Shown here: piece after piece, positions 7,966 to 53,597 of the stretch | Layout: every line of letters begins with the position of its first letter | How positions within the stretch are numbered: position 1 is the stretch's first letter | Assembly (NCBI GenBank): GCA_022800815.1 | Contig: JAAWRC010000020.1 | Span: 1 to 62,750 of the forward strand | From: Lachnospiraceae bacterium | Lineage (GTDB): Bacteria; Bacillota; Clostridia; Lachnospirales; Lachnospiraceae | Length of the DNA stretch: 62,750 nt | Reading direction: 5' to 3' | Program-made: the position numbers and the translations under genes | Notes under the pieces: generated by a model | The model's input: only the letters and a program-made list of their open reading frames with translations | The model's database searches: none | What the model was told of the DNA's origin: nothing

Positions 7966-8784
7966 ATGGCGTTGGATCAGATCCGCAGACATTACGGTGA
8001 AATGTTTCAGGCTGAAAAAAAAGCGGCCGATTACATCCTGGAAAATCCTTCCAGGGTCATCGGTCTTTCTCTTGCAAGTCTCGCAAAGGAAAGCGGGACC
8101 AGCGACGCCACCATCATACGCATGTGCAGGCATGTCGGCTTCTCCGGTTTTTACCAGTTGAAGATCAGCCTCGCCAGCACCCTTGGAAAAGCCGCCGCCA
8201 TGAAAAACATGGAGAACGCCTACCCGGAAAACGTCACGGAGTTTTTCAATCTGGTTGCGGAACGAGTCAGAGAACTTCCCATGCATATTTCCCCGGAACT
8301 TCTGCACACCTGTTCCGAATTGATCTCCCATGCGGAGTGCGTGTACCTGTCCGCCTGGGGCAATACTGGAGAGGTTGCCTCCGATTTTGCCCACAGACTT
8401 GCAAGAAAGGGGATCAAAAGCTTCACCTCCGACGTGCCTGAGTTTTCCACCCGTTCCCTGGCCCTCGGAAATGCGAGGGACGTCCTGGTGGCCATCAGTC
8501 ATTCCGGGGGGACCATCCACGTAATCCAGTCGCTCCAGATCGCAAAAAAACTGGGAATGAAAACCATTCTGATTACTGCCGCCGAATCTTCCGAGGCGGG
8601 CAGGCAGGCGGACCACGTCCTCTGCGCCGGCGTCCGGGATTATCCCTTTCAGGACCTGGGCAATGCCTCCCACCTGTTTGAATACCTGATCGTCGACGCA
8701 CTCCTCTATTTCATGGAGGAGGACGAAGACAGAAATCAGAAGGGCGACTACACGGAATTCATCATGGCAGACGCCAAATATTAA
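7966..8784 (+). CDS. RpiR/MurR family transcriptional regulator (1)
   Basis: This 272-residue protein has an N-terminal HTH_6 domain (AKESGTSDATIIRMCRHVGFSGFYQLK) and a C-terminal SIS sugar-phosphate-binding domain (VYLSAWGNTGEVASDFAHRLARKGIKSF, VAISHSGGTIHVIQSLQIAKKLG). It faces the large minus-strand sugar operon from its 3' side. It is a close relative of the RpiR protein at 20686-21510, so the operon is flanked by two similar regulators. The effector is probably a sugar phosphate of that pathway. An AGAGGGGG ribosome site precedes the ATG. Confidence 0.85.
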   Translation: MALDQIRRHYGEMFQAEKKAADYILENPSRVIGLSLASLAKESGTSDATIIRMCRHVGFSGFYQLKISLASTLGKAAAMKNMENAYPENVTEFFNLVAERVRELPMHISPELLHTCSELISHAECVYLSAWGNTGEVASDFAHRLARKGIKSFTSDVPEFSTRSLALGNARDVLVAISHSGGTIHVIQSLQIAKKLGMKTILITAAESSEAGRQADHVLCAGVRDYPFQDLGNASHLFEYLIVDALLYFMEEDEDRNQKGDYTEFIMADAKY

Positions 8785-9033
8785 AATTTTTCCACCTGTG
8801 CGGTTGAAGGTTTTACATGTCTCCGTCAGGGAGCAGCCGTTTTCGCAGACACGTCGATTTTTTCATTTTGCTGCGCCGCCTATTGCCATCGAACCGGCTT
8901 CCATCAAAGCGGGTCAGCCGGTTCGATGGCGCTATGCTCGCAAAATCTGCAAAATCTGCCTATCGTCTGCTTCAAACGGCTGCTCCCTGACGAAGACAGA
9001 ATACAATATTCTAACCGCACAGGTGGAAATTTT
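8785..9033. repeat. Structured element family 2, copy 1 (candidate structured RNA)
   Basis: The whole gap between the convergent RpiR and aldolase genes folds into nested helices. The outermost is TTTCCACCTGTGCGGTT with AACCGCACAGGTGGAAA. Next come CGTCAGGGAGCAGCCGTTT (8824-8842) with its exact complement, GCAGAC with GTCTGC, GATTTT with AAAATC, ATTTTGC with GCAAAAT, and a terminal stem CATCGAACCGGCT with AGCCGGTTCGATG. Unpaired blocks TGCGCCGCCTATTGC, CCATCAAA-GCGGGTC and GCGCTATGCTC recur almost unchanged at 44849-45023, while the helix sequences differ and still pair. Strand of action is unknown. It could also act as a bidirectional transcription barrier. Confidence 0.6.
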
Positions 9034-9882
9034 TTATGCTTTCTGATTGCTCCCGCACACCAGGATTCTGCCTTTTACATATTCTTTTACCTTCTCCCGG
9101 CCCGCACCGCCGTATTTTTTCGGGTCAAAGACCTTCGGATTTGCCGCCAGGCATTCTTTTACGCCGTCTGTAAAGGCGATCCGCAGGTCCGTGGCGTAAT
9201 TCACTTTGCAGATCCCTCTTTCAATACACTCACGTACGGTCTCGTCCGGCACGCCGGAAGTTCCATGAAGCACCAGTGGAACCTCCACCACCTTCCGGAT
9301 TTCGGAAAGCCGGTCGACGTCCAGCCTGGGAATCCCCTTGTAGACTCCGTGGGCTGTCCCGATTGCCACCGCCAGGGAATCAACCTCCGTCCGCTCTGCA
9401 AATTCCGCAGCTTCCTCCGGCACGGTATAGCCGCCGTCTCCGCCGTCCAGGCTGTCTTCCTTACCCCCGACCTTTCCAAGCTCCGCTTCCACCGGAATCC
9501 CCGCCGAATGGCACACCTCCACTACCCGCCTTGTGATCTCCACGTTCTCCTCGAACACATGGTGGGAACCGTCGATCATAATCGAGGTATAGCCGTTTCG
9601 AAAGGCCTTCACTGCCAGCTCAAAGCTGTTTCCGTGGTCCAGATGGATGGCCACCGGAATCCGGGCGCCTTCGGCCGCTGCCTTTACATTGGCGAAATAA
9701 AATTCCGGCCCCGCATAGTTTAAGGTAGAAGGCGTGGTCTGCATGATCACCGGGGCGCCAAGCTCCTCGGCCGCCGCAATGACCGCCTGCACCATCTCCA
9801 TATTTTCCACATTGAAGGCTCCCACCGCATAACCTCCGGCCTGTGCGTCAAGGAGCATTTTCTTCGTCGTAACTAAAGCCAT
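9034..9882 (-). CDS. gatY: Class II (zinc) tagatose/fructose-bisphosphate aldolase, GatY/KbaY type
   Basis: The 282-residue class II aldolase has zinc-site motifs IHLDHG, the GTAHGVYKG histidine and VLHGTSGVPD, plus the NYATDLR substrate loop. It cleaves a ketohexose 1,6-bisphosphate to glycerone phosphate and glyceraldehyde 3-phosphate. The adjacent GatZ-like subunit (49 bases upstream) favours tagatose 1,6-bisphosphate as substrate over the glycolytic fructose form, though sequence alone does not settle this. It is the last gene of the sugar operon. Confidence 0.82.
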   Translation of the reverse strand: MALVTTKKMLLDAQAGGYAVGAFNVENMEMVQAVIAAAEELGAPVIMQTTPSTLNYAGPEFYFANVKAAAEGARIPVAIHLDHGNSFELAVKAFRNGYTSIMIDGSHHVFEENVEITRRVVEVCHSAGIPVEAELGKVGGKEDSLDGGDGGYTVPEEAAEFAERTEVDSLAVAIGTAHGVYKGIPRLDVDRLSEIRKVVEVPLVLHGTSGVPDETVRECIERGICKVNYATDLRIAFTDGVKECLAANPKVFDPKKYGGAGREKVKEYVKGRILVCGSNQKA

Positions 9883-43456: not shown

Positions 43457-44644
43457 CTACTTCCCCGCCTTCAATAATTCCTGCAGCTTTCCCAGACGGG
43501 AAATGGCCTCGTCGATGGTGGCCTCCTCCCTGGCAAAATGGAGCCGGATCAGATGGTTGACCTCCTCCTTGAAAAAGCTGGAGCCGGGAACCGCCGCCAC
43601 GCCCACATTCCGGATCATCCATTCACAGAACTCCAGATCCGTATAGCCCGCAAACTGCGGCAGGTCCAAAAATTCCTGAATGTCGATCAGGACAAAATAG
43701 GTGCCCTGGGGGACGTTGTGCTTGAGGGCGATCCGGTCCAGCCCCTCCAGAAAATAATCCCGCTTCTTCGTATATGTTTCCAACAGCTTATCGTAATAGG
43801 ACTGGGGGAACAAAAGCCCCGTCACCGCCGCCTCCTGGAGGGGCGCCGCCGCTCCCACCGTCAGAAAGTCGTGGACCTTCTTCGCCCCCTCGATCACCTC
43901 CGCCGGCCCGATCAGGTATCCCAACCGCCAGCCGGTGATGGAGTAGGTCTTGGACAGGGAATTGCAGGTGATGGTGTGCTCATACATTCCCGGCAGGGAC
44001 GCCATGCAGGTGTGCCGGTACGGCGCATAGACCATGTGCTCATAGACCTCGTCGGTCACCACGAAGGCGTCATACTTCACCGCCAGCTCCCCGATGGCCG
44101 CAAGCTCCTCCCTGGAAAACACCTTTCCGCAGGGATTGGACGGATTACAGACAATGATCGCCTTCGCCCCCTCGGCAAAGCCCCTCTCCACAAGACCCAG
44201 GTCGAAGTCATACTCCGGCGGCACCAGGGGCACGTAGATCGGCTCCGCCCCCGACAGAATGGCGTCCGCCCCGTAATTCTCATAAAAAGGAGAAAACACC
44301 AGCACCTTGTCGCCCGGATTGCAGATGGTCATCATGGCGCACATCATGGCCTCCGTGCCTCCGCAGGTGACGACGATCTCCGTCTCCGGGTCGATCTGCC
44401 TTCCGATGGCCCTGCCCTGCTTTTTCGCCAGCGCCTCCCGGAAATTCTCTGCCCCGAAGGTCACCGAATACTGGTGAGGCCCCTCGTAGGCGGCCTTCGC
44501 CAGGGCATCCATGATCTCCTTCGGCGGGTCAAAGTCCGGAAATCCCTGGGACAGGTTGATGGCTCCGTGCTCATCGCTGATCCTCGTCATCCGGCGGATC
44601 ACCGAATCCGTAAAGCTCTGTACTCGTTCACTCAAAACCGGCAT
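43457..44644 (-). CDS. Class I/II pyridoxal-phosphate aminotransferase
   Basis: The 395-residue fold-type I aminotransferase has the cofactor lysine in TCNSLSKTYSITGWRLGYLIG, the aspartate in DAFVVTDEVYEHMVY, and the N-terminal INLSQGFPDFDPP typical of the kynurenine/methionine aminotransferase branch. The start at 44644 (MPVLSERVQSF) is chosen because AGAGG precedes it; the frame is open to 44749. It is co-transcribed with the HcxA-like dehydrogenase. Likely substrates are methionine or aromatic amino acids. Confidence 0.85.
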   Translation of the reverse strand: MPVLSERVQSFTDSVIRRMTRISDEHGAINLSQGFPDFDPPKEIMDALAKAAYEGPHQYSVTFGAENFREALAKKQGRAIGRQIDPETEIVVTCGGTEAMMCAMMTICNPGDKVLVFSPFYENYGADAILSGAEPIYVPLVPPEYDFDLGLVERGFAEGAKAIIVCNPSNPCGKVFSREELAAIGELAVKYDAFVVTDEVYEHMVYAPYRHTCMASLPGMYEHTITCNSLSKTYSITGWRLGYLIGPAEVIEGAKKVHDFLTVGAAAPLQEAAVTGLLFPQSYYDKLLETYTKKRDYFLEGLDRIALKHNVPQGTYFVLIDIQEFLDLPQFAGYTDLEFCEWMIRNVGVAAVPGSSFFKEEVNHLIRLHFAREEATIDEAISRLGKLQELLKAGK

Positions 44645-44783
44645 ATCATTTTTTCCTCTTTTCCTATTTATTTTATTTATACACGGGCAATGCCCCAAAG
44701 GCCGCCCGGCCCCCAAAGGGCACTTAACCCCTAAAAGATGCGCATGCATCTGCCGGGCACCTAAATCCCCTCTACAATCATAA

Positions 44784-44819
44784 ATGCACCTTCGCTCTGC
44801 GTCAAGAGTGAAGGTGCAT
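44784..44819. terminator. Hairpin between P-type ATPase and aminotransferase genes
   Basis: ATGCACCTTCGCTCT pairs with AGAGTGAAGGTGCAT around a six-base loop, with one mismatch. Only a weak T-run follows on the minus strand, so termination efficiency is uncertain. It lies next to structured element copy 2. Confidence 0.5.
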
Positions 44820-44848
44820 AAAAATACATTTTTACATTATATTTACGC

Positions 44849-45023
44849 CTGGGAGGCCGCCGTCATCCTGCGCAGACACGTCGGTTTTGCGGATTTTACT
44901 GCGCCGCCTATTGCAGACAATTCCACCTCCATCAAACCGGGTCGGCTGTAATTGTCTGCGCTATGCTCATAAAATCTGTAAAACCTTCCTATCATCTGCA
45001 CAGCATGGCGGCGGCCTCCCCGG
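44849..45023. repeat. Structured element family 2, copy 2 (candidate structured RNA)
   Basis: The outer stem GGGAGGCCGCCG pairs with CGGCGGCCTCCC. Inside, GCAGA pairs with TCTGC, GGTTTT with AAAACC, GATTTTA with TAAAATC, and the terminal stem GCAGACAATT with AATTGTCTGC. Compared with 8824-8998, blocks CGCAGACACGTCG, CTGCGCCGCCTATTGC, CCATCAAAnCGGGTC, GCGCTATGCTC and CCTATC are conserved. The helices have changed on both sides so that pairing is kept (for example GATTTT/AAAATC versus GGTTTT/AAAACC). It lies 20 bases after the P-type ATPase gene on that gene's strand. Confidence 0.6.
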
Positions 45024-45042
45024 ACAATCTATGTTGTCGCCG

Positions 45043-47835
45043 TCATCTCCCAAACCGGCGGCGCAGCCTCCGGAAAACCTCCTGCAGTCGGTCCAGCCCC
45101 GCCGTCAGGTAACGGAGCAGCGGCTCGGTGGCGATGGCGAAGAGCACGAAGAGCATGGCGCATTCTTTGGAGATGGCCTGGATGGCGAAAAGCTCCGGCA
45201 GGAACAGCCCTGCAAGGATCAGGCCTACCACGCAGCCGGCCCAAATCGCCATACGAAATTTGTTCATGGGCTGGCAGATCTTAAAGAGGATCATGAAGCC
45301 GACAATGGCGAGCAGCATGGTGGCCGACGTGGCCACGTCCCCCGCATCCACGTCGAAGGTTCCCGCAAAGATCACCAATGCTCCCACGGCAATCACGTCG
45401 GTCAGGCCTCCCGGCAGCGCCTTCCGGATGACATTGGACATGAAACGCCCCTGGATCCGCTCCTTGTTGGGCTGTAAGGCCAGAAAAAAGGCCGGCACGC
45501 CGATGGCGAACATGCTGATCAAGGAGATCTGCGCCGGTTCCAGCGGATAGGTGATCATGAACGCCACGGAAAACAGCGACAACAAAAGCGAGAAGATATT
45601 CTTCACCAGAAAGAGACTGGCCGACCGCTCGATGTTGTTGACCACCCGCCGCCCCTCCAGAACCACCTGGGGCATGCAGGAGAAATCCGAGTCCAAAAGG
45701 ACCACCTGGGAAGCCTGGGCCGCCGCCTCGCTTCCCGACGCCATGGCCACGCTGCAGTCGGCGTCCTTTAAGGCCAGCACGTCGTTGACCCCGTCGCCGG
45801 TCATGGCCACGGTCCTGCCCTGGAGCTTGAGGGTTCCCACGAACTGCCGCTTCTGGTCCGGCGTTACCCGGCCGAACACCGTGTAATCCCGCATGGCCTG
45901 GCTGACCGCCTCCGGCGTGGTCAGCGTAGAAGCATCCACATAGTTCTCCGCTCCCTTAACCCCGGCCTCCTTCGCCGCCTCCGATACGGTTAAGGGATTG
46001 TCCCCGGAGATTACCTTGATCTCCACCCCCTGCTCGGCAAAGTAGGCAAAGGTCTCCGGCGCCTCCTTGCGGATGGGATTGGCCAACAGCACGAAACCCA
46101 GGGGAACCACCTTCCCCGTGAGCGGCTTTCCGTCCGGCTCCCCGTCGTAGGAGCCGAACACCAGCACCCGGTAACCCTTCGCCGTGTGGTCCTCCACCTG
46201 GGGCCGCACCGCCTCGAAATCCTCCCGCAGGACAAACTCCGGCGCTCCCAGCACATAGGCCCCGTCCGCAAACACCACGCCGCTGTATTTGACCGCCGAG
46301 GAAAAAGGGATCACCCGGACCGGGCGGGCCCCCGTCCCTTCCGTAAAATACTCCTTGAGCGCCTCCATGGTAATATTGTCACTGCTCATGGCCTTCGCAA
46401 AATCCCCGAGAAGGGCCGGAAGGGATGCCGTCGTCCCTTCTCTCCAGCCGGGAGCCGGGACCACGTCCTTCACGCTCATCTTATTCTCCGTGATGGTCCC
46501 TGTCTTGTCCACGCAGAGCACGTCCACCCGGGCCAGCGTCTCGATGCTCTTCATGTCATGGAGCAGCACGCCGTTCTTCGCCAGGCGGATGGAACTGACC
46601 GCCAGGGCCACGCTGGTCAGCAAATACAGGCCCTCGGGGATCATGCCGATCACCGCTGCCACCATGGAGGTGATGCTGTCGGTGATGGTCTCCCCGTTAT
46701 ACACATAGCCCTGGACAAATAACACGATGGCGATGGGAATCAGGATGACCCCCACAACCTTGAGGATCTTGTCCAGGGAACGCATCATCTCCGACTGCTC
46801 TCCGGTCTTCATCTCCTTGGCCTGCATGGTCAGCTTCGAGATATAAGAGGCATTTCCCACCGCCGTAAGCCCCGCATGGCACTGTCCCGACACCACGAAG
46901 CTTCCGGAAATCAGGGGATCTCCCTTCCGCTTGGTGATCTCGTCGGACTCTCCCGTGAGGAGCGATTCATTGACCTGCACCTCCCCGGCGAGGACCACCG
47001 CGTCGGCACAGATCTGGTTGCCTCCCTTGAAGATCACCACGTCGTCCTGCACCAGTTCCTCCGAATTCACCGTCCAGACCCTGCCCTCCCGCACCACGGC
47101 CGCCTTCGGCGCACCCAGCATGTTCATCTTCTCCAGAACCTGCTTGGCCCGGATCTCCTGCACAATGCCGATCAGCGTATTGACCACGATGACCGGGAGG
47201 AACGTCAGGTTCCGGAAGGAGCCCACGGCACACAGGAGCGCCGTCAGGATTGCAAAGATCAAATTAAAATAGGTAAACAGGTTTCCCCGGATGATCTCAC
47301 CCGTGGTCCGGGAGGACGAATCCACCGCCTCGTTGGAAAGTCCCCTGGCCATCCGCTCCTCCACCTGCTCCCTGGTAAGCCCCGTTTTGTAGGATACGGC
47401 CGCCCCGTATCCGGCCTGGCCCGTCCGAAATCCACCCGGGCGCTCCCCTTCTCCCGGAAAGCCGTCCGACGCTTCCCGGTCCTGCCTCGAAAAAGCCGGG
47501 CTCGCCTCCTCCCGTCTCGACGGCCCCCGCCCCTCCGGCTTCGTCTCCGCCGTCATCCAGGCTGGCTTCTGTCTCTCGGACGCCGCCCCCATTCCCATCC
47601 GCCCGGACGGGTCCTGTCCCGTCGGCACCTCTCCCGCTTCCATGCGGCCGGACGGCTTCTGTTCCGTCAACGTCGGCCTGCGCCCCATCGGCATCAGCTC
47701 GATGGGCCCCCGTCCCTCCGGCGCCCGTCTCACGGGCTCCGATAACATCCTGGCCCTTGCCGCCTGAATCTCCTCCACCGGGATCCGCTCCGTCGCCGCC
47801 TCGTACTCTGTCTGTTCCATCTGCCGCCTGGCCAT
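45043..47835 (-). CDS. Cation-transporting P-type ATPase (CtpE-like)
   Basis: The 930-residue pump has the phosphorylation motif CVDKTGTITENK, actuator TGES in LLTGESDEITK, hinge TGDGVNDVLALKDADCSVAM and about ten membrane helices. The start of the core (GLSNEAVDSSSRTTGEIIRGNLFTYFNLIFAIL) resembles mycobacterial CtpE, a calcium-linked pump. No heavy-metal-binding domain is present. The first about 150 residues are a hydrophilic, Pro/Gly/Arg/Glu-rich extension with repeated PSGRM-like and EGRGP units, which is unusual for the family. GGGAGG precedes the ATG. Confidence 0.88.
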   Translation of the reverse strand: MARRQMEQTEYEAATERIPVEEIQAARARMLSEPVRRAPEGRGPIELMPMGRRPTLTEQKPSGRMEAGEVPTGQDPSGRMGMGAASERQKPAWMTAETKPEGRGPSRREEASPAFSRQDREASDGFPGEGERPGGFRTGQAGYGAAVSYKTGLTREQVEERMARGLSNEAVDSSSRTTGEIIRGNLFTYFNLIFAILTALLCAVGSFRNLTFLPVIVVNTLIGIVQEIRAKQVLEKMNMLGAPKAAVVREGRVWTVNSEELVQDDVVIFKGGNQICADAVVLAGEVQVNESLLTGESDEITKRKGDPLISGSFVVSGQCHAGLTAVGNASYISKLTMQAKEMKTGEQSEMMRSLDKILKVVGVILIPIAIVLFVQGYVYNGETITDSITSMVAAVIGMIPEGLYLLTSVALAVSSIRLAKNGVLLHDMKSIETLARVDVLCVDKTGTITENKMSVKDVVPAPGWREGTTASLPALLGDFAKAMSSDNITMEALKEYFTEGTGARPVRVIPFSSAVKYSGVVFADGAYVLGAPEFVLREDFEAVRPQVEDHTAKGYRVLVFGSYDGEPDGKPLTGKVVPLGFVLLANPIRKEAPETFAYFAEQGVEIKVISGDNPLTVSEAAKEAGVKGAENYVDASTLTTPEAVSQAMRDYTVFGRVTPDQKRQFVGTLKLQGRTVAMTGDGVNDVLALKDADCSVAMASGSEAAAQASQVVLLDSDFSCMPQVVLEGRRVVNNIERSASLFLVKNIFSLLLSLFSVAFMITYPLEPAQISLISMFAIGVPAFFLALQPNKERIQGRFMSNVIRKALPGGLTDVIAVGALVIFAGTFDVDAGDVATSATMLLAIVGFMILFKICQPMNKFRMAIWAGCVVGLILAGLFLPELFAIQAISKECAMLFVLFAIATEPLLRYLTAGLDRLQEVFRRLRRRFGR

Positions 47836-53263: not shown

Positions 53264-53391
53264 AGTCTATCCTCCCTTCCATTCTCCTTCACCGAGGCTC
53301 TCGGTGGATTCCGGCGGCAAAAGCCTGCGCCCCTTGATGTCTCCGCCGGCCGGCGCCATCGTTTTGCCGCCTGTTCCGGACCGGGAACCTT

Positions 53392-53531
53392 GAATTTCTA
53401 AATGTTCTGATCCATCCTTTCGCAAGCAGCCTCGCAACCGGCTTATGATCCGCCGTCCATGGCGGCATAAGCCTTTTCCGGACGTCCTGTCCGGAAATTG
53501 CTGATCTTTCCCACAGAACATTAAGAAATTC
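53392..53531. other. Folded intergenic element in the envelope operon
   Basis: GAATTTCTAAATGTTCTG (53392-53409) pairs with CAGAACATTAAGAAATTC (53514-53531). The enclosed region holds two hairpins, GGCTTATG-TCCGCC / GGCGG-CATAAGCC (about 53440-53473) and TTCCGGAC / GTCCGGAA (53476-53495). The rest of the 53264-53597 gap shows no gene. It could be an intra-operon processing or attenuation site. Confidence 0.55.
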
Positions 53532-53597
53532 TAAGGTCCCCGGCCAGTCAGGGACATCAAAACATGGCGCCGACCGCCGGGGACTGCCGAGGGCATC

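Follow-up and report, generated by a model that had tools for sequence, protein, structure and literature searches.

The hairpin at positions 8785-9033 of the window (the whole stretch of 62,750 nucleotides analysed here) is one of a family of non-coding hairpin repeats that lie scattered in genomes of Lachnospiraceae and are probably non-autonomous mobile DNA recognised by structure, a reading to which we give a probability of about one half. An earlier note on this DNA had described two structured intergenic stretches with shared unpaired blocks, and both the stretches and the quoted blocks are present, with cores at 8844-8970 and 44871-44999. The element had been called twice-occurring; copies 1 and 2 are instead members of a dispersed repeat family, with 34 matches of a covariance model in the own genome, and not an isolated pair. 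Both hairpins exist as claimed, but the extent given for copy 1 (8824-8998) is too short, the outer arms running over 8785-8843 and 8971-9033, and the pairs CATCGAACCGGCT/AGCCGGTTCGATG and GCAGACAATT/AATTGTCTGC, taken for the terminal stem, form the apical helix. The features of the two copies are the following.

8785..9033: copy 1, whole quasi-palindrome; spans the gap between convergent genes and abuts the stops of ORF 7966-8784 (plus strand) and ORF 9034-9882 (minus strand)
8785..8843: copy 1, left outer arm of subfamily A, AATTTTTCCACCTGTGCGGTT...; also found in 6 other near-full-length copies of the own genome
8844..8970, minus strand: copy 1, conserved core; the mismatch bias points to the window minus strand as the folding strand
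8851..8855: copy 1, loop 1, left side, ACGTC
8872..8884: copy 1, loop 2, left side, TGCGCCGCCTATT
8885..8930: copy 1, apical hairpin; variable helix 8885-8899 / 8916-8930, apical loop 8900-8915
8931..8939: copy 1, loop 2, right side, GCTATGCTC; the point at which ten related copies carry a nested insert of ~97 nt
8957..8964: copy 1, loop 1, right side, TGCCTATC
8971..9033: copy 1, right outer arm, ...AACCGCACAGGTGGAAATTTT
44845..45025: copy 2, whole quasi-palindrome (this stretch served as query); lies downstream of the P-type ATPase gene 45043-47835 (minus strand)
44871..44999, minus strand: copy 2, conserved core; inverted in genome G010 at the same site, which is empty in five congeners

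A copy of the repeat measures ~180-250 bp and is a quasi-palindrome, with a core of ~128 nt and three loop regions enclosed by outer arms. From the outside inwards, the order is outer arms, a short terminal core helix, loop 1 (consensus ACGTY / CCTATC), AT-rich middle helices, loop 2 (GCCGCCTAT / GCTATGCTC), an apical helix of ~15 bp and the apical loop. The outer arms, whose median extent is 36-61 nt depending on the genome group, are specific to each copy and yet ~91% complementary over ~26 bp in gapped alignments of 120 copies (orthologues included and hence not independent), against 65% in controls pairing the left and right arms of different copies. One long imperfect hairpin is predicted for copies 1 and 2 on either strand, with folding stronger than chance (z values of -14.7/-15.9 and -9.4/-7.4, respectively), as is expected of any palindrome. 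Copy 1 fills the interval between its flanking genes from stop codon to stop codon; these encode an RpiR/SIS-type regulator (7966-8784, plus strand) and a class II fructose-bisphosphate aldolase (9034-9882, minus strand). Copy 2 sits upstream of an aminotransferase gene (43457-44749, minus strand). In ten copies belonging to three core subfamilies (L042 and L048 of G000; L201-L206 and L108 of G004; L266 of G008), a two-hairpin element of ~97 nt, AAGGCACTAAAGC...GCTCATAACG, is nested at the same point of core loop 2, with ATGC on either side in L048. Pattern matches to this nested element, only part of which were checked for the presence of a core, number 3 in G000, 8 in G004, 1 in G006, 1 in G007 and 8 in G008, with none in seven other genomes.

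The family is real and larger than first noted. By BLAST, copy 1 has at least 40 matches in the own genome and copy 2 has 33, counts in which matches overlap and both strands of the palindrome are included. The covariance-model search that the earlier note had proposed was made with a model (R1) built from an alignment of 22 own-genome cores (A1), without the truncated copies and without the insertion-bearing L007. Matches, among which a few opposite-strand hits may be counted, were found in 8 of 61 genomes; the 34 in the own genome lie within 3.4 Mb. Seven of the 11 genomes of the genus, the own one included, were matched (34, 39, 5, 14, 13, 56 and 16 times), four had none, and one genome of another genus had three. 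Across the Lachnospiraceae, with up to 8 candidates scored per genome, 26 of 397 genomes from 24 genera were matched at E up to 0.001, the strong subset (E < 1e-8) comprising 18 genomes from 16 genera. A pattern scan returned 23 stretches, all in Lachnospiraceae MAGs (uncultured Lachnotalea sp., iMGMC-385, RGIG423). Copy number per genome spans 1 to 56, and the element is absent from close congeners.

The statement that the element matches no known RNA class agrees with Rfam (release 15), which, for the whole window at the gathering score, gave no match on the element, the sole match being a TwoAYGGAY RNA elsewhere (53378-53546, minus strand, 97 bits). Copy 1 searched at E up to 10 returned four sub-threshold hits only, and 12 + 11 further loci searched at E up to 0.5 gave no match falling on an element; a T-box leader-like match at L336 3531-3848 reached 72.1 of 93 bits, under the gathering score. 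Nothing credible was found in plasmids, phages and viral contigs with the queries used, and one core from another genus had no match in plasmids or phages. Viral carriage was considered for two viral-contig pattern hits and rejected, both being without a model match and resembling coding DNA by reading. No earlier description was found in the literature searched, subscription papers being outside its scope. In two of its helices the pairing is retained while the sequence is not, which makes the element a variant among dispersed palindromic repeats.

The earlier note had seen helix changes with pairing kept, and the covariation does exceed nearly all controls. In A1, 95.3% of cells pair, against 82.9% in shuffled alignments and 29-47% with the partner slid; double changes occur in 23 of the 38 pairs, and double-changed cells outnumber one-sided ones by 115 to 15. 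Four of five covariation measures lie above every one of 500 shuffles; the exception, the number of further pair types, gave 39 against a shuffle mean of 40.0, and 383 of the 500 shuffles were as high. Among 25 distinct rows from other genera, 89.0% of cells pair against 63.0% when shuffled, with double changes in 33 of 38 pairs, 212 double-changed cells against 11 one-sided, and all five measures above all 500 shuffles, in an alignment fitted to the model, which favours it. Pairing is kept almost without wobble intermediates.

Strong covariation over 38 pairs, together with matches in many genera, would also be found if the repeats were a family of structured non-coding RNAs, made from the core's minus strand and working in trans or on mRNA. 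We regard this as rather unlikely; one-sided (G-U) changes are rare and double changes dominate. Template switching between inverted repeats is reported to homogenise arms and invert spacers (PMC8604942), and to create and maintain hairpins with multi-base compensatory changes (PMC8794818). Since template switching yields paired changes in one event, covariation is insufficient for an RNA here, and kept pairing does not by itself serve as the mark of selection for which it had been taken.

Probable traces of such a process are seen where copies occupy the same site in different species. Compared between species, the core is flipped against its flanks at 6 of 18 shared sites (17 groups plus L007/L204); at 11 the orientation is the same and at one it is unclear; five of the 11 (L018, L023, L032, L046 and L113) and one of the six (L070/L216) were judged from one flank. 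The pairs L064/L213, L070/L216 and L085/L226, shared by G007 and G008, are all three inverted, and a weaker fourth pair, L112/L242, left out of the 18, reads as having the same orientation. At the unclear site, that of L029, G004 carries two copies and the G006 copy reads as inverted, and at L113/L239 the cores belong to different subfamilies. When L032 is compared with L176, the right side of loop 2 looks replaced by the reverse complement of the opposite arm. As a separate observation, at L037 (1401-1900) and L188, ~500 bp over the element are identical in G000 and G004 between flanks of ~85% identity, a tract that reads as a recent exchange over the repeat.

Template switching during replication fits the core inversion, the arm copying and the excess of double changes, without any RNA. 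The hairpins described as maintained in this way in PMC8794818 and PMC8604942 share with our repeats multi-base compensatory changes, arm homogenisation and spacer inversion, but those papers concern RNA genes and yeast coding DNA, whereas here the process is proposed for a dispersed bacterial repeat. Switching within the quasi-palindrome would rewrite both arms together and flip the core, so that the stems would drift fast and stay paired.

The loops behave differently. Across 114 cores of the genus the loop blocks hardly vary in most of their columns, unlike the apical helix, a pattern that an RNA would also produce. Between copies of the same genome (six genomes, up to 300 pairs each, with regions picked after viewing the alignment), the difference is 5-12% in loop 1, 11-24% in loop 2 and 7-25% in the apical loop, against 3-23% in the middle helices (20-23% in four of the six genomes), 10-51% in the terminal helix, 24-45% in the apical helix and, in gapped alignment, 32-38% in the outer helix; loop 1 ranks first or second in conservation in all six genomes. 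Among 18 orthologous pairs, the changed positions are 57/712 in loops, 147/1566 in core stems and 167/871 in the outer stem; over recent time, the loops as defined are hardly slower than the core stems, and only the outer stem is faster. In other genera, all four loop blocks are kept within 1, 1, 2 and 2 mismatches in 11 of 25 copies and altered in the remaining 14. The apical and outer stems of other genera differ again within a similar frame, and do so even among the copies of one complete genome, G315; L339 is barely like the family, and L325 is without recognisable outer arms.

The mismatches left in the helices bear on which strand may be read. Over 105 distinct hairpins, the apical helix holds 89 mismatches that are wobbles on the minus strand (A-C on plus) and 15 that are G-U on plus; counted by position, type and genome, the figures are 46 against 13 (p = 2e-5, for events that are not independent), and by position and type only, 18 against 12. 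The outer stem has no strand bias (89 minus-strand wobbles, 75 G-U on plus), the middle helices of alignment A2 are about even in a hand tally (17 against 21), and other genera gave 1 against 4 in few cells, with 9 of 29 records left out as duplicate or unparsed. Given the lean of the apical mismatches to wobbles on one strand, the strand of the core that is read may be the minus strand, in folded form. This lean speaks for an RNA as well, the unbiased outer stem speaking against one. Taken together, the conserved loops of the genus and the apical bias suggest selection on a folded single strand.

This bears on a reading in which the repeat is a neutral relic: an old insertion no longer under selection, in which template switching alone keeps the arms paired. 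The flips, the copied arms and the shortened or half copies are in keeping with it, as are the similar rates of loops and core stems among orthologues and the altered loop blocks of other genera. Template switching by itself, however, would be expected to remove asymmetric loops and to act on every helix in the same way. Loop 1 nevertheless stays most or second most conserved, far more so within genomes than the helices of the apex and the outer arms, and only the core shows the mismatch bias. Selection therefore still seems needed, and we hold the relic to be improbable. For the preferred reading of a mobile repeat recognised by structure, the loops would be kept by a factor that recognises the folded strand 5'-GCAGACGATAGG...-3' (minus in the window), as ssDNA or RNA. 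In a more specific and only tentative form, the repeat would be identified by its loops and pairing, read on one folded strand by a non-Y1 factor, while template switching rewrites its stems at each site, leaving every chromosomal copy with paired stems of its own and a core that flips to and fro.

Gene context was compared for 111 copies with both neighbours in eight genomes (orthologues included, hence not independent, and genes taken from a simple longest-ORF caller): 49 lie between convergent genes, 58 between tandem genes and 4 between divergent ones, which puts the family mostly at the 3' ends of genes. Among the tandem cases, 27 follow the direction of the core and 31 run against it. 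An RNA acting in cis on the upstream mRNA is disfavoured, since its orientation would have to be preserved and the copies face either way, and the flipping of cores weighs likewise against the RNA reading. Orientation relative to genes not being kept, recognition would serve the spread of the repeat and not the neighbouring gene. A promoter-like site lies inside the copy 2 core on the minus strand (44920-44893, 9/12; region total 2 against 0.3 expected), which would favour an RNA, but the promoter scan gave none at copy 1; the lack of an Rfam match, the range of copy number and the absence from close congeners argue against the RNA too. Another promoter-like sequence, TTGACG-17-TATGAT (44805-44777), stands upstream of the aminotransferase gene, surrounded by a minus-strand palindrome at 44786-44817, GCACCTTC..CTC TTGACG..GAGCGAAGGTGC, which is conserved in congeners and may resemble MerR-type operators.

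The scarcity of divergent contexts (4/111) and arms reaching near stop codons could also mean that the host maintains a 3'-end module, a bidirectional terminator or mRNA-end hairpin of which the core is a by-product. To the eye, many outer repeats resemble terminators (A-tract, GC stem, T-tract), a form that the short derivatives preserve. A terminator, however, needs no core of ~128 nt with conserved loops, the corresponding gene end is without the element in congeners, and a simple scan, limited to loops of 3-8, found no terminator at copy 1 or copy 2. Avoidance of promoter regions would follow from the purging of harmful insertions as well. A host module of this kind seems to us less probable than an RNA, although the arms of a mobile repeat lying near 3' ends may also act as terminators in both directions. 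Short terminator-like hairpins, GGGGCTGTTGCAAAATAT...GCAACAGCCCC, recur in G008 and G007 (e.g., L251-L265), and in G008 the outer repeat GGGGCTGTTGCAAAATAT also makes ~45-bp hairpins without a core. These core-less hairpins with a shared outer repeat prompted the possibility that the core inserted into pre-existing terminator hairpins, which is weakened by two observations: four of five short forms of G007 read as internal deletions, and the empty copy 2 site of congeners has no matching hairpin.

The copy 2 site is occupied in G000, G004 and G010 (three species) and empty in G005, G006, G007, G008 and G002; G001 and G009 are unaligned there, and G003 is without an orthologous flank. At five sites, an intact G008 copy faces a shorter G007 form, four of these reading as internal deletions and one as a half copy; some of the deletions lie at short direct repeats, the direction of change being inferred. 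At L301/L251, L305/L260 and L310/L264, both species have a short or shortened form, and the half copies L008, L009 and L012 (G000) retain no more than the right arm with a portion of the core. Shared sites and shortened orthologues indicate that many copies are old and inherited, and that some lineages seem to be losing them.

Mobility is argued from the number of copies, their patchy distribution, the empty sites and an orientation that is unconstrained; no transposition event was observed. Of the two possibilities first raised, a structured RNA or a mobile palindrome, the palindrome fits better, being multicopy and patchy, with empty sites and core inversion, and the RNA fits less well. Direct repeats across the element showed no clear excess over mismatched controls that would mark a target-site duplication. 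At the L003 site, G004 retains a 15-nt element end, which is more like a deletion, and G005 is without it. Terminal inverted repeats are common to copies within subfamilies and differ between subfamilies, and a search with the end repeats in G006-G008, G000, G004 and G010 found no parent transposon with the same ends. A facing end pair 2.2 kb apart in G007, tried as an autonomous IS, was rejected, as it encloses ordinary genes, which by eye from their translations we take to be TsaA-like and permease-like. Among the neighbours of the element in 17 genomes of other genera, only ABC transporters recur in six or more. A Y1 transposase was also rejected as the mobiliser, since PF01797 does not track the element: it is found in three of eight element-bearing genomes, two of them by partial matches only (two partial in G000, one in G010, six in G035; 0 in G004, G005, G006, G007 and G008), and in one of four element-free congeners (four in G002).

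Integron attC sites have free stem sequences, and it is their pairing and unpaired bases that are recognised on one folded strand; the likeness is an analogy only, and copies of the repeat were not seen as cassette borders. Several families of small repeats are also comparable. BOX, RUP and SPRITE of Streptococcus pneumoniae, which their authors see as parasites that transpose slowly, are likewise small interspersed repeats with extensive secondary structure and many copies in few related species (PMC3049150); they are set apart, by description only, by the two variable complementary helices, the core inversion at some shared sites and the many genera found here. Prokaryotic MITEs (PMC10969869) are similarly non-coding and multicopy, with terminal inverted repeats, here shared inside subfamilies, but our repeats have neither a target-site duplication signal nor a parent transposon that could be found, and their outer arms vary among copies with similar cores. 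REP/REPIN elements moved by a Y1 transposase (TnpAREP) are dispersed extragenic palindromes as well, whose folded single strand is maybe recognised (PMC8266576, PMC3116915, PMC3733652). That the repeat is of this type is very improbable, given that REPs measure 20-40 bp (PMC3733652), far less than the element and its core, and that PF01797 is patchy and missing from five of the eight element-bearing genomes.

Covariation is normally taken as proof of a functional RNA, and RNA-discovery pipelines based on it would score this family as RNA. Here, in what looks like a natural instance, a mutation process of the DNA seems to have produced at least part of the covariation. Since genomes carry dozens of copies and many sites are shared, the family could be used to measure template switching in bacteria, through both arm copying and core inversion. 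It also points to a factor that may recognise folded strands in Lachnospiraceae.
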